The translations under genes were made by a program, and so were the position numbers. From an uncultured bacterium (GTDB lineage Bacteria > Babelota > Babeliae > Babelales > CAIQNR01), in assembly GCA_903873255.1 (NCBI GenBank), contig CAIQNR010000018.1, positions 1-39,372 on the forward strand: 39,372 nt of DNA. Direction: 5' to 3'. The notes below the pieces were generated by a model. The model saw only the letters and a program-made list of their open reading frames with translations. It was not told the origin of the DNA and did no database searches. Shown here piece by piece: positions 2,223 to 39,372 of the stretch; within the stretch, counting starts at the first letter, position 1; every line of letters begins with the position of its first letter.

Positions 2223-2252
2223 GTTTTATAAAAAAACTAGTGATCTAAAATC

Positions 2253-2286
2253 AAAGACCCTTGAGTAAAATCAGGGGTCTTTTTTT
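2253..2286 (+). terminator. Rho-independent terminator after rplM
   Basis: A 12-bp stem AAAGACCCTTGA / TCAGGGGTCTTT (one G-T wobble) with a 6-base loop GTAAAA, running directly into a T tract. It lies 30 bases after the rplM stop and ends the recR-pepP-rplM transcription unit. Confidence 0.9.
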
Positions 2287-2304
2287 GTGTCAAAAATAAG
2301 CTTC

Positions 2305-2506
2305 TAATGCAAGGTTTAGGTAAATTTTTTTTCGAAAGTATTGATTTCATCGGTTTAGAGTTGGTAAGTTTATAGTAATAAGTTGATGCGTTGTCTTTTT
2401 AGGCCATTTTAAAAATGAGAGGTTTTAAGGATGAAGAAAGTTTTACGTCTTATAGTGCTGATGTCTGTTGGCGCAGTTCAATCAAGTGATAGTCTAGATG
2501 ATACAA
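2305..2506 (+). repeat. Direct repeat copy 1: upstream region plus signal peptide
   Basis: Matches 3025-3226 over 202 bp with five mismatches and no gaps, at a constant offset of 720 bp. It covers the whole leader (starting TAATGCAAGGTTTAGG), the ribosome binding region and the first 25 codons of the downstream gene, and then identity stops abruptly. This copy has an ATG start at 2431. A -10-like TATAGT at 2371-2376 lies inside the repeat, but I see no good -35 for it. Confidence 0.95.
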
Positions 2507-3027
2507 TTCAGAATAATGCTCAAATTCAATCAGTAAATGAAAATAATAGTTCTAATGATGCCGATAGTTTAGCTGCTGCATCGTCAAAAAGAGAAGAAGC
2601 AAATAAAACTCTTAATAATTTTATTTTGTATTTTCAAAATACCATTAAATGGTCTGTGGATCATGGGAAAATTCCGGCAGGGACTCAAAAAGGACTTTCC
2701 TTCAATTCTAGGATCATTGGTTATAATAATTGCTACCAACATCTTATATCCAAAGTAAACGAGGCTTTTGCAGCGATTGCACAGATGATTAATTATAAAG
2801 GTAATAATGAAAATGATAAAAATATGTTAGTCGATACGGCGTATTACGCAATTAAATCAATAAATTTTGAGCTTCCCAATGAAAACAAGGATGAGTTTAG
2901 ATGGATTTCGGAAAGCAGTCCTTTTAACAGAATCTCACAAGAAAGGGTTTTTGAAGGCACCTCATATAAAAATATTAAATGCCTTAAAGTTAGTTTAGCA
3001 AATTTTGTCTATAACTATGCGTTATAA
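2431..3027 (+). CDS. Hypothetical secreted protein with signal peptide (repeat-module family)
   Basis: I do not recognise this 198-aa protein. It starts with a short charged N-region and hydrophobic core (MKKVLRLIVLMSVGAVQSS) typical of a Sec signal peptide, with likely cleavage around residues 18-20. The mature part is polar and rich in Asn and Ser, with a low-complexity stretch near residues 28-50 and a likely helical remainder. No catalytic motif or membrane segment is apparent. The start ATG follows GAGAGGTTTTAAGG. Its leader and signal-peptide region is repeated almost exactly after the gene (copy 2), and the repeat begins at this gene's own TAA. It lies between two terminators, which suggests an accessory unit. 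Expression and export are inferred. Confidence 0.7.
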   Translation: MKKVLRLIVLMSVGAVQSSDSLDDTIQNNAQIQSVNENNSSNDADSLAAASSKREEANKTLNNFILYFQNTIKWSVDHGKIPAGTQKGLSFNSRIIGYNNCYQHLISKVNEAFAAIAQMINYKGNNENDKNMLVDTAYYAIKSINFELPNENKDEFRWISESSPFNRISQERVFEGTSYKNIKCLKVSLANFVYNYAL

Positions 3028-3226
3028 TGCAAGGTTTAGGTAGATTTTTTTTCGAAAGTATTCATTTCATCGGTTTAGAGTTGGTAAGTTTATAGTAATA
3101 AGTTGATGCGTTGTCTTTTTAGGCCATTTTAAAAATGAGAGGTTTTAAGGCTCAAGAAAGTTTTACGTCTTATAGTGCTGATGTCTGTTGGCGCAGTTCA
3201 ATCAGGTGATAGTCTAGATGATACAA
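3025..3226 (+). repeat. Direct repeat copy 2: same upstream region plus signal peptide, start codon lost
   Basis: A 202-bp near-identical copy of 2305-2506. The five differences are at 3043, 3063, 3151, 3153 and 3205. Two of the five fall in the start codon, turning ATG into CTC at 3151-3153. Its first three bases are the TAA stop of the preceding gene, so the duplicated unit is exactly 720 bp long (2305-3024). Confidence 0.95.
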
Positions 3227-3821
3227 ATTAAATAGAAACAGGCTATCGTGATGCTTTAGCTGTTGAAAATGATTCAGGAGCTGATTTGTTGAACGAAGCA
3301 AATGATTAAAACGATATTTTAAAGAGAACTATAAATAATAAAATAGATGAGACGGCGAGTCGCTATACAATGGCGGTTGACAATTACAAAAATGATTGTT
3401 CAAAATTTTGTGAATCTAATCTTCCTAAAGCAAAGATAGATTTACATGCAAATGAGAAACAGCTAGCACAGCGAGCTAAGACGGAACGGGGAGTGTTAAA
3501 AGGGGGTTTTCTATGCATACTTGGGCTTTATCAAGAACAAATCCAGCAACTATTTGTTTTGAGTGTAGAGATAGGTGTTATAATCATACTTACGATCTGG
3601 TTTCTCATATGCAAATATTGGTTGAAAAAATAAAAAATTTAATCAATTTTCCTAATGAAGTAGTAAGTGGTGCTCTGAATTTGGTGCCGGAAATTGATGA
3701 ATTTAGGGATTATTCTGATAGACAGTATTCTTCTGTTTTTACAGTTGAATTAAACCGTCTAAAAAGAGCGGGTGTTGTTTTTTGTAACGAATTGAAGGAT
3801 ATTATATTCAATTGCTTATAG
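3151..3821 (+). pseudogene. Decayed paralogous secreted-protein gene behind repeat copy 2
   Basis: Reading from the CTC that replaces the ATG gives the same signal peptide as the upstream gene (KKVLRLIVLMSVGAVQSGD). The frame then hits TAA at 3229 and again at 3307. The same frame reopens as the track ORF 3370-3633, and an overlapping shifted frame (track ORF 3513-3821) carries on to 3821. The switch probably lies near the AAAAGGGGGTTTT run at about 3498-3510. The start loss, two stops and one frameshift together support a pseudogene. The body shows only faint resemblance to that of the intact gene (both end in a hydrophobic helix-like segment with Cys or Asn), so paralogy beyond the shared 5' module is uncertain. 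Translation of the internal fragments is unproven. Confidence 0.75.
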
Positions 3822-3899
3822 TTCCTTCGTTTAAAAAATCTTTTCAATACCTATGCCGTTAATTTGAATTAAAGTTATTTGAAATATAATAGCAAAATA

Positions 3900-3933
3900 G
3901 TTAAAAAGGGCTCGTTCAGGGCCCTTTTTTAAC
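3900..3933. terminator. Bidirectional terminator between convergent units
   Basis: GTTAAAAAGGGC pairs with GCCCTTTTTTAAC (one bulge), with a loop of about nine bases. The A-run on one side and the T-run on the other allow termination in both directions, which suits its place between the plus-strand pseudogene and the 3' end of minus-strand rseP. Confidence 0.8.
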
Positions 3934-3955
3934 GTCAAAATTCAATTTACATTGC

Positions 3956-11522: not shown

Positions 11523-12353
11523 ATGGCAATTATAACTAGAAAACCAAGAAACCCTTCTTTGCGATTTCAGACATTCTTATCATCTGATGATATTACGCAA
11601 ACAACTCCAGCTAAAGGTTTGGTAGTTGGTCTTAAAAAGAGTGGTGGACGTAACGCTTATGGGCGTATTACGGTTCGTCATCGTGGAGGCGGGGCTCGTA
11701 GAAAATATCGTGTTATTGATTTTTTGAGAAATACTCGTGACATCGAAGGTGTTATTAAGACAGTCGAATACGATCCAAATCGTAACGTTCGTATTGGCTT
11801 AGTTGCATATAAAAATGGTGTTAAAAAGTATATTCTTCTTCCTCTTGGTTTAAAAGTTGGAAGTAAGATATATGCTGGTAACGATGTAGAAGCAAAACCA
11901 GGTAACGCTATGCCTTTAAAAGGTATACCTGTAGGTTTTACTATTCATAATGTGGAAGTCAAACCAGGATCAGGCGGTACTTTTGCTCGTAGCGCAGGAA
12001 CTTCAGTTCAGCTTATGGCGAAGACAGAAGAACATGCAACATTACGTATGCCTTCTGGAGAAATCCGTATGGTACATCTTAATTGTTGGGCTACTATCGG
12101 TGAGCTTGGCAATGCTGATTACAAAAATATCACATGGGGTAAAGCTGGTAGAACAAGACATCTAGGATTTAGATCATCTGTTCGTGGTATGGCTATGAAC
12201 CCTGTTGACCATCCTCATGGTGGTGGTGAAGGCCGTTCTAAGTCAGGATCACATCCACAATCTCCATGGGGTAAAGGATGTAAGGGTACAAGAACGCGTA
12301 AGCGCAAAGACCCTCTGATTTTGAAGAGACGGAAGTCAAAAAAAGATAAATAA
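11523..12353 (+). CDS. rplB: 50S ribosomal protein L2
   Basis: A large-subunit core protein needed for subunit association and peptidyl-transferase activity. 276 aa, normal for bacteria. Diagnostic parts are NPSLRFQT near the start, the GGGARRKYRVIDF block, GTFARSAGTSVQLMAK, and the highly conserved C-terminal MNPVDHPHGGGEGRS with its functionally important histidine, then a basic tail. Minus-strand ORF 12238-12540 and plus-strand 11950-12165 are shadows. Confidence 0.99.
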   Translation: MAIITRKPRNPSLRFQTFLSSDDITQTTPAKGLVVGLKKSGGRNAYGRITVRHRGGGARRKYRVIDFLRNTRDIEGVIKTVEYDPNRNVRIGLVAYKNGVKKYILLPLGLKVGSKIYAGNDVEAKPGNAMPLKGIPVGFTIHNVEVKPGSGGTFARSAGTSVQLMAKTEEHATLRMPSGEIRMVHLNCWATIGELGNADYKNITWGKAGRTRHLGFRSSVRGMAMNPVDHPHGGGEGRSKSGSHPQSPWGKGCKGTRTRKRKDPLILKRRKSKKDK

Positions 12354-12376
12354 TCAATAGTGGAAGATAGTGAGCT

Positions 12377-12661
12377 ATGAGTCGTTCAACGAGAAAAGGT
12401 CCTTTTGTAGATGTCTCTCTGGTACAAAAAATCCAGAAGGCAAAAGCAGATAAAAAAAACGAAGCGGTTAAGACCTGGTCCCGCAGAAGCATGGTGATTC
12501 CTGAATTTATTGGGCATACTATTGCAATCCATAATGGCAAGAAATTTGTTTCAGTATTTATTACTGAAGATATGGTAGGCCATTACCTAGGTGAGTTTTC
12601 TCCAACGAGAACATTCCGATTGCATAGTGGTCAGCGTAAAGCTGGGGTTGCTCAAAAGTAG
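12377..12661 (+). CDS. rpsS: 30S ribosomal protein S19
   Basis: A small-subunit head protein contacting the A-site side. The 94-aa protein begins [19 protein letters not shown] and contains [47 protein letters not shown] in shorter recognisable blocks, the standard S19 pattern. Length matches the family (about 92). It lies in the canonical rplB-rpsS-rplV order, 23 bases after rplB. Confidence 0.98.
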
Positions 12662-30984: not shown

Positions 30985-31935
30985 ATGAAAAAAGTATACA
31001 TGCTGCTAACAATTGCGTTAAGTGATTCATTTCTTGCTGCTAGTAGTTATCGTTCAATAGCTGATGGATCGGCGTCAGCATCATCTGCTTCTTCAGGAGC
31101 AAAAGGTTCAGGTAAATCGAGTAATTTTTACGAAAAATCATCACCTATTGTACCAAAAAAAGGGGTTAAAGAGGATGCTGCACTTGATAAAGATCTGTGT
31201 GCACGGGCAGTGAATACGGTATTTTGTATTACCATGATTAATACAACACAAGAAAAGCTGTTGCTTCGTCATCGTTTACATAATCATTCGGATGTTGTTG
31301 AAGATGGTGAATTGCTGTCTGAAGCTATTTTACAAAAAGATATTTTTTCAGATCAAAAGAGTGTTGATGGGTTGCGTGTTGAATTGCAATTTGACAGAGA
31401 AGTACAAAAAAAATTTCCATGGCTTTTGCCTCGATCGCATGGGGTTAAGAATGCCTGTCTTTCATTAGTTTCAACATTGCTTTTACATGATAAAGACATA
31501 AAAAATAAATTTTTGGTTATGGTAGATGAGCAAGAGCACCCTTTGGTTGCACAGCATAGTGCCGGGCAGGATGCATTTAAGACGGTTATTTTTTCACGGT
31601 TATCGGATAAGTCTGAAATTTCATTGATAGCCTCATCAGATCGTACTTTAGAGGATGATGTAAGCTTGCAAAAAGATGGGTTATATCCACATGCTTTTAT
31701 TATGAATAACGATATAAACTATCATACAGCACAAGGCATAATGGTTACCTTACTACGCACTCATCAAAGTAAATCGCTAGCTAGGAATTTATTACTCCCA
31801 ACACAGATTTATTATCCAATAACCTTTGAGCATAGGTGGAAAACGCCTCTTGATTCTTCAAAAAAATTGGCAGTTTGGCTAGATGATGGAAAAGAGGGTG
31901 TTCCAGAAATTGAAACCTATCAGTGGGCTGAATAG
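30985..31935 (+). CDS. Hypothetical exported protein, Ser/Ala-rich N-terminus
   Basis: Not recognised. The 316-aa protein starts MKKVYMLLTIALSDSFLAASS, a likely Sec signal peptide with cleavage after Ala-18/19. A Ser/Ala/Gly low-complexity linker of about 30 residues follows (SASASSASSGAKGSG), then a globular-looking region of about 260 residues. Features there are a LLRHRLHNH segment, LVMVDEQEHPLV, a VTLLRTHQSKSLARNLLLP stretch, and a C-terminal WKTPLDSSKKLAVWLDDG. No catalytic motif or further membrane helix is seen. AAAGGAAG precedes the ATG. It follows gap by 28 bases and may share its transcript. Confidence 0.7.
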   Translation: MKKVYMLLTIALSDSFLAASSYRSIADGSASASSASSGAKGSGKSSNFYEKSSPIVPKKGVKEDAALDKDLCARAVNTVFCITMINTTQEKLLLRHRLHNHSDVVEDGELLSEAILQKDIFSDQKSVDGLRVELQFDREVQKKFPWLLPRSHGVKNACLSLVSTLLLHDKDIKNKFLVMVDEQEHPLVAQHSAGQDAFKTVIFSRLSDKSEISLIASSDRTLEDDVSLQKDGLYPHAFIMNNDINYHTAQGIMVTLLRTHQSKSLARNLLLPTQIYYPITFEHRWKTPLDSSKKLAVWLDDGKEGVPEIETYQWAE

Positions 31936-35018: not shown

Positions 35019-35061
35019 GTGTCCAAAGTTGTTAAAATTAAACCTTATGGAAGGAATTTAT

Positions 35062-35796
35062 ATGAAACGTTTATTCGCTATTTTTTTTGTTATTTCATCA
35101 GTAGTAAGTGCTGATGGTGTATGTAAACCTGTAGTTTTAAAAAAAGATTTAAATACTCAGTCAAGAAGATTTGTAAAAGATTTCTATAACAATAAAAAAA
35201 CGGCATTAAAATTTATGTTGGGATCGGTAGGATTGTCATTGGTGAATCAGTGGGTGGTGAGAGATTTGAGCAAAACAAAACAGCTTCCAATTGCATTGGC
35301 TGTAACGATTCCTGCTTACATAGGTTGTAATATTTATTCAGGATATAAATTGAGTTATGCTCAAATTTTAACAGCATATAGCTTGATAGATGATATTAAA
35401 GATGAAGAGTTAGCAAACGATAAATTAATTGGTAATAAATATGATGTAAAGTCAAAAGAGTTTGTAAAAACATTCTGGGCTAATAAAAAAGCTGCATTAT
35501 ATGCATATTTTACATCGATAGGGTTAGGAAGTGCAGCAGCTTTAGTATGGGTAAATCATATTACGAAAACTGCTTCATCTCTAGAATGCATGACATTAGA
35601 ACAAAGAGAAAAATTGAATATAATTTCTCCTGCCGGAGCTGTTTTAGGAATAGCTGCTTTAGGTTCATTGGTATATGGTGGATATAAGCTTGGTTATGCA
35701 CAAATTTTATCAGGGCGTAAACTTGCAAAAGAATTAGATGCAGAAGACGCAGAGCTTGAAGAAAAATTAAAACATGAGTTAGTAGTAACTGCATAA
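35062..35796 (+). CDS. Hypothetical exported/membrane protein with internal tandem duplication
   Basis: Not recognised. 244 aa from the ATG at 35062, chosen for GGAAGGAATTTAT upstream and the signal peptide MKRLFAIFFVISSVVSADG (the track start adds 11 residues with no ribosome binding site). Two copies of one unit follow. Residues 34-117 hold SRRFVKDFYNNKKTALKF, a hydrophobic segment and GYKLSYAQILTAYSL. Residues 131-232 hold SKEFVKTFWANKKAALYA, a hydrophobic segment and GYKLGYAQILSGRKL. Each unit has about two membrane-like helices. The second is roughly 16 residues longer. The C-terminus is acidic/charged. It is a single-gene unit with its own promoter and terminator. Confidence 0.75.
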   Translation: MKRLFAIFFVISSVVSADGVCKPVVLKKDLNTQSRRFVKDFYNNKKTALKFMLGSVGLSLVNQWVVRDLSKTKQLPIALAVTIPAYIGCNIYSGYKLSYAQILTAYSLIDDIKDEELANDKLIGNKYDVKSKEFVKTFWANKKAALYAYFTSIGLGSAAALVWVNHITKTASSLECMTLEQREKLNIISPAGAVLGIAALGSLVYGGYKLGYAQILSGRKLAKELDAEDAELEEKLKHELVVTA

Positions 35797-38329: not shown

Positions 38330-39372
38330 ATGAAGATAGTTAAAGTTACAACACTCTGTTTTTTGTTGATGAGCATGCCATATGTTTCTGCTAATTCAGC
38401 TGAATTAAAGGGTACTCCAAGAGGGTTAGTACAAAAGAGAATTTCTCAGCTTGAACATAATGAGCAACTGGCTCAACAAGAAAAATCGGCTCAAGAAAAA
38501 GTTATTAAAAAAACATCCGATACTCTCGTTCAAAATGCTTTAAAACTTGGCATTAAAGAAGCAGCAATAGTTAAAAAGCCTGTTGTTATTAAGCACGAAA
38601 TGTCACTATCTCAAAAATCAGTAACAATGATGCCAGAGCGTAAAGCTCAAGAGCCTGCTGTAATAATTAAAGATTTACAAGAAAATTTAAAAATTTTGAG
38701 TAAGGTTCAAGGAACGAAAGATCGCTTAGCTATGATTCCTAAAATAATAAAAAAATATAATGATTTTCAGAGTGCATTACCAAAAGATGTTGTCTTGACC
38801 AAAGCTCAACAGGATCAAGTTGATGTTGTTTCATTAGAGATAAAATTGAGAAAGTTAGAAATTGAGTCTTTAGGAAATTTAGCTCAAAGAAAGACAATGC
38901 TTGATGATATAGAATCTTCATATTTGAATCTCTCAAAAAAATCACTTGATAATTCTACGCTTGATAAACTTTTAGATATTCATAGAGATTTTATGGCAGA
39001 AAAAATGTTGTATAAAAAAGATAAATATAATCCAGATATTGATAAAATAGATAATAAGAAAATTCTCTATCTAGAACCAACATCTATAATAGAAAAACAA
39101 CAGCTTATTTCTGATAAATCAGTTGATACATTGGTATCGAATATTGTTGAAAAAGAACCATCTAATTTGTTGCATGATGTAAAAGAAACAGTTAAAAATA
39201 AACAAGCATCAGATACGATAAAAAATTTACAAGCGGTTCTTGAAAAGCTTGGTCGCCTAAAAGATGTAGAGTTTATTGCGCATGGCTATAGTTACACTCT
39301 GCTTACAAAAAAAGAACTGATTCAAAAGATTAATGATTATATAGATTTGATACATAAAGAGTCATTAGCTCC
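38330..39372 (+). CDS. Large secreted, helix-rich hypothetical protein (runs off the window)
   Basis: Missing from the ORF track because it has no stop in the window. The ATG at 38330 follows AAAAAGGAGTTTGAC, a near-ideal ribosome binding site, and the frame stays open for at least 347 codons. It starts MKIVKVTTLCFLLMSMPYVSANS, a likely signal peptide. The mature part is rich in Lys, Gln, Glu and Leu with long helical, coiled-coil-like stretches, for example QKRISQLEHNEQLAQQEKSA, IIKDLQENLKILSKVQG and TIKNLQAVLEKLGRLKDV. Only one Cys (in the signal) is seen. I do not recognise a family. A periplasmic or surface coiled-coil protein is the simplest guess. A minus-strand ORF at 38739-38945 is a shadow. 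Confidence 0.75.
   Translation, partial: MKIVKVTTLCFLLMSMPYVSANSAELKGTPRGLVQKRISQLEHNEQLAQQEKSAQEKVIKKTSDTLVQNALKLGIKEAAIVKKPVVIKHEMSLSQKSVTMMPERKAQEPAVIIKDLQENLKILSKVQGTKDRLAMIPKIIKKYNDFQSALPKDVVLTKAQQDQVDVVSLEIKLRKLEIESLGNLAQRKTMLDDIESSYLNLSKKSLDNSTLDKLLDIHRDFMAEKMLYKKDKYNPDIDKIDNKKILYLEPTSIIEKQQLISDKSVDTLVSNIVEKEPSNLLHDVKETVKNKQASDTIKNLQAVLEKLGRLKDVEFIAHGYSYTLLTKKELIQKINDYIDLIHKESLA

Follow-up and report, generated by a model that had tools for sequence, protein, structure and literature searches.

In Mycoplasma bovis, the vsp genes are neighbours whose variable bodies are preceded by a conserved non-coding upstream stretch of 70 bp and a conserved 31-aa signal peptide (PMC3365025). A conserved signal peptide followed by a hypervariable mature peptide is likewise found in the precursors of frog antimicrobial peptides (PMC7106915). 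Among the Dependentiae, 37 tandem duplications are reported in Babela massiliensis (PMC4378268), and 44% of the proteins of Chromulinavorax destructans are reported to carry signal sequences, with enrichment in ORFans (PMC6561590).

The window analyzed here is a whole stretch of 39,372 bp and contains a pair of tandem units in which 126 nt and 25 codons are conserved before divergent bodies, resembling the vsp genes of M. bovis and the vpma genes of M. agalactiae. However, the locus is not a member of the vsp/vpma-type phase-variable lipoprotein loci, because its signal peptide (MKKVLRLIVLMSVGAVQSSD) contains no cysteine and hence no lipobox, and its 5' module exists in only two copies, one of them a pseudogene, instead of a multi-gene array. 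Among the window ORFs, no site-specific (Xer-type) recombinase was recognized by eye, and no inversion signal is known. The frog precursors share with the window pair a conserved export signal and a fast-changing mature part. They are eukaryotic and under positive selection, whereas the window pair is bacterial and includes a pseudogene, and the identity of its non-coding leader and synonymous sites indicates that copying was recent. The locus also resembles the tandem duplicated, secreted ORFan genes of the Dependentiae, but homogenization of 5' ends is not reported in the available text on B. massiliensis or C. destructans (PMC4378268, PMC6561590). The source genome probably belongs to this phylum, judging from its small size, its numerous secreted orphan ORFs and its tandem pairs when compared with the descriptions in these two papers. 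The features of the locus are as follows.

2253..2282, + strand: hairpin resembling an intrinsic terminator at the end of rplM, where the lineage-specific insertion has its left edge
2305..2506, + strand: 202-bp module, copy 1 (126-nt non-coding leader, codons 1-25 and first base of codon 26)
2431..3027, + strand: gene 1, intact; its orphan product of 198 aa has a Sec-type signal peptide (MKKVLRLIVLMSVGAVQS), a helical prediction and no Pfam match
3025..3226, + strand: 202-bp module, copy 2, 97.5% identical to copy 1, start codon changed to CTC
3151..3821, + strand: pseudogene 2, with lost start (CTC at 3151), TAA at 3229 and 3307, a frameshift at about 3480-3633 and its end at TAG 3819-3821
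3513..3821, + strand: residual open frame of pseudogene 2, resembling the C-terminal half of gene 1 (CYNH/CYQH and the last helix)

Direct comparison of 2305-2506 with 3025-3226 showed 197 of 202 positions to be identical, ungapped and at a spacing of 720 bp, with mismatches at 2323, 2343, 2431, 2433 and 2485 (copy 1 numbering). This confirmed the duplication described in an earlier note on this DNA, which had also located the abrupt end of identity within codon 26 and the beginning of copy 2 on the stop codon of gene 1. Both borders were found where it had placed them. In the ORF 2431-3027, the right one (2506/3226) falls on the first base of codon 26, and over a single bin the in-register identity of 92-100% drops there to about 30%; the left border of copy 2, at 3025, is the TAA of gene 1. 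The signal-peptide codons of the pair displayed no synonymous changes (0/14.7 sites) and the 126 non-coding leader bases were 98% identical. Searching the own genome (898,228 bases, 45 contigs) with the module recovered copy 2 at E = 1e-95, far beyond chance, and no third copy, the next best match having E = 0.16; the recurrence that the earlier note had asked about was thus absent from this genome. The exact leader 33-mer had no match among GTDB contigs. A structured RNA in the leader was considered and rejected, as no strong structure (z +0.82) and no Rfam match were detected in the leader.

Gene 1 and pseudogene 2 are a lineage-specific insertion between rplM and the convergent rseP. The gene order M24 peptidase, rplM, convergent rseP, rpsL, rpsG, fusA and tuf is conserved in the family, and the gap between rplM and rseP measures 1,733 bp from stop to stop in the window (2223-3955) versus about 83, 102 and 93 bp in three members of the same family (L042, L044 and L045). 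The fetched flank contained the convergent pair in 22 genomes, and in 13 of these the gap, measured between alignment ends, was below 300 bp. Six of the 22 gaps contained an ORF of about 280-304 aa read as LpxC (the one tested had a Pfam E of 3.5e-78) and three contained small signal-peptide-like ORFs, two of them in L017. The filled gaps were those of L017, L028, L035, L024, L031, L032, L034, L036 and L039. Given these LpxC-like or signal-peptide-like ORFs, the rplM-rseP gap looks like a recurrent landing site in the relatives. Elsewhere in the window, signal-peptide-like ORFs were found at 30985-31935 and 35029-35796, both without Pfam match, and at 38331-39372, where the ORF runs off the contig end.

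The signal peptide of gene 1 was called by eye from the sequence, and the protein is presumably still expressed and exported via Sec. Its structure model was helical and of low confidence (mean pLDDT 58, pTM 0.59), and no PDB match with E <= 0.001 was obtained. No credible relatives of gene 1 were detected in 101 genomes of the phylum, GTDB contigs or viral contigs. Two weak matches were dismissed on reading: one (L007) overlaps an ORF in another frame read as aspartyl-tRNA synthetase, and the other (L005) lies where the sequence looks low in complexity, within a 538-aa ORF or opposite to it. The role of the protein is probably host- or envelope-related.

The earlier note had seen a different gene body behind each copy of the module. 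The second body is not intact, since it lacks a start codon, is interrupted by TAA stops and is frameshifted. Two of the five mismatches fall in the start codon of copy 2, changing ATG to CTC (simple binomial chance about 0.002), and the coding signal leaves frame 0 and continues in frame +2 at some point between about 3480 and 3633. A lost start, in-frame stops and a frameshift in a formerly coding stretch, the marks of a pseudogene, are therefore all present in copy 2. That the region was once a gene is indicated by the open stretches that remain, of 107 and 113 codons (the longest with P = 0.001 versus shuffles), and by codon-position G+C typical of coding sequence. Pseudogene 2 is a former gene, now dead. 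Its C-terminal half as protein (3513-3818) had no relatives in 49 relative genomes, and no other copy of its body DNA was found in the own genome.

Comparison of the two bodies gave a mixed picture. Unrestricted local alignment was not significant (146/1000 shuffles reached the score), nor was the comparison of the N-terminal frame-0 piece of body 2 with gene 1 (0.29-0.33). The ungapped in-register comparison of aa 27-78 gave P = 0.0016. For the C-terminal halves, the null comprised 546 fragments of the translations of other ORFs in the own genome; the semiglobal score was 47 versus a null of 16 +/- 7.2, with 0/546 fragments as high, while the local mode gave a null fraction of 0.02-0.03. The C-terminal parts of both bodies carry CYNH/CYQH and a helix at the matching end, and the units of gene 1 and pseudogene 2 are of comparable lengths. 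To call the bodies essentially unrelated, as had been done earlier, was too strong given the weak colinear similarity in register and at the C-terminus. That they are very diverged paralogues is supported but not proved by these tests, some of which were picked post hoc; pseudogene 2 is probably a diverged paralogue of gene 1.

A survey of 801 kb of the own genome (window included, with small overlaps between stretches) yielded 216 signal-peptide-like ORFs by a mechanical filter. All seven pairs with a strong 5' match (ungapped score of at least 25) were same-strand neighbours within 3 kb, versus none of about 23,000 other pairs (Fisher P = 5e-17, a statistic that ignores genes common to several pairs). 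These seven do not include the window pair, since its copy 2 has no open frame. No similarity between bodies was detected in three of the pairs (L065, L052 and L073); it was weak in L066 and L060, and strong in L058 and L048. Synonymous divergence over codons 2-20, calculated from small counts for the window pair and six of the seven pairs (all except L048), was 0 in the window pair and L066, 0.13-0.14 in L058 and L065, 0.25-0.32 in L052 and L060, and 0.59 in L073. The signal-peptide ends of L065 (7142/7490) and L052 (11642/11968) were 71-84% identical in DNA; those of L065 (G000:C44, 7142-7441 and 7490-8056) reached 84%, in front of bodies of 99 and 188 aa. In the L066 pair, the 5' ends share 96-100% identity between -25 and +75 and are followed by bodies that diverge with insertions. 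This pair (14677 and 14383, - strand, G000:C7) consists of secreted ORFs of 84 and 106 aa, 294 bp apart. The L060 pair (11803-12144 and 12205-12537, G000:C31) consists of tandem secreted ORFs with similar 5' and 3' ends and a divergent middle. A 128-bp repeat, 87% identical, was also observed within a single 425-aa secreted ORF (L051, 9673-9800 and 10006-10133).

Samples of two relatives, G021 and G004, each yielded one such neighbouring pair with matching 5' ends but no body similarity. In 400 kb of E. coli, used as control, 0/24 neighbouring signal-peptide pairs were positive versus 7/110 here, numbers too small for a significant contrast. Low synonymous divergence beside unrecognizable bodies suggests that the 5' ends in such pairs are younger than the bodies. 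The process does recur, with different 5' ends that are shared locally, in at least three to six neighbouring secreted pairs. The idea of antigenic variation or effector diversification, raised in the earlier note, was only partly retained: an antigenic-variation cassette acting across the genome is unsupported, since no further copy of the 202-bp module exists there, whereas part of the diversification idea receives some support from the other pairs.

The explanation we favor, with some reserve, is that the two units are paralogues in tandem, encoding an orphan secreted protein, that local gene conversion or copying of the 5' segment has recently homogenized their 5' ends, and that gene 2 decayed afterwards. 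An identity of 197/202 that includes 126 non-coding bases, beside barely recognizable bodies, supports conversion, which is expected to leave a high-identity tract covering synonymous and non-coding sites as found here. The main rival is a partial 5' duplication, in which illegitimate recombination placed the 202-bp segment before an unrelated frame, joined at the stop codon of gene 1, so that the frame captured an export signal. If the bodies are unrelated, this and not conversion would be the mechanism. The abrupt borders at both sides, the non-significant full-length local alignment of the bodies and the pairs L065 and L052, with similar signal-peptide ends and bodies without detected similarity, are consistent with it. 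However, the bodies are similar in register and C-terminally, body 2 stays in the frame of the signal peptide and the gene lengths are similar, and we consider such a capture unlikely.

Two further explanations appear much less probable still. In ordinary tandem paralogues, purifying selection could hold only the leader and signal peptide and leave the mature part to evolve fast; tandem duplications are frequent in the presumed phylum (PMC4378268), and in the other pairs it is chiefly the stretch between the ribosome-binding site and about codon 20 that is conserved. Selection on the protein does not, however, keep synonymous sites or 126 non-coding bases, least of all in a pseudogene, which makes this reading improbable. 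It is equally hard to credit an assembly artefact that fused two strain variants of one locus. The assembly is a draft, may stem from a metagenome and, being split into 45 contigs, may mix strains, but the copies differ at five positions, no common sequence lies to the left of both for mis-joining, and the flanking gene order is conserved.

Local conversion thus remains our preferred reading, and the earlier proposal of gene conversion limited to the 5' end of fast-diverging paralogues fits best, including the synonymous and non-coding identity. Its alternative proposal, a modular export or expression cassette before variable cargo, was abandoned; with copy 2 dead, the module does not function here as a cassette for new cargo. 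We infer conversion as the mechanism, as well as its direction; the genus of the source genome consists of one genome, with no close relative to polarize the event. In the proposed sequence, a gene for an orphan small secreted protein would have entered between rplM and rseP in this lineage and then duplicated in tandem, and the mature parts of the duplicates would have diverged almost beyond recognition. Later, the 5' end of one copy (leader, ribosome-binding site and signal peptide) would have overwritten that of the other by gene conversion, leaving the 97.5% identical tract that ends in codon 26. Gene 2 would afterwards have lost its start codon and acquired stops and a frameshift, becoming a pseudogene.

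Taken alone, the window locus amounts to a decayed duplicate. Considered jointly, this locus and the other pairs suggest that some export signals in this genome are younger than the proteins they export. We put forward only as a tentative possibility that new or rapidly changing frames in this host-associated lineage are recurrently equipped for export by local copying, in which a gene receives the ribosome-binding site and signal-peptide end of its neighbour. If true, local copying of 5' ends would be a bacterial route to new secreted proteins, and younger export signals would bear on how parasites with small genomes keep making species-specific secreted proteins.
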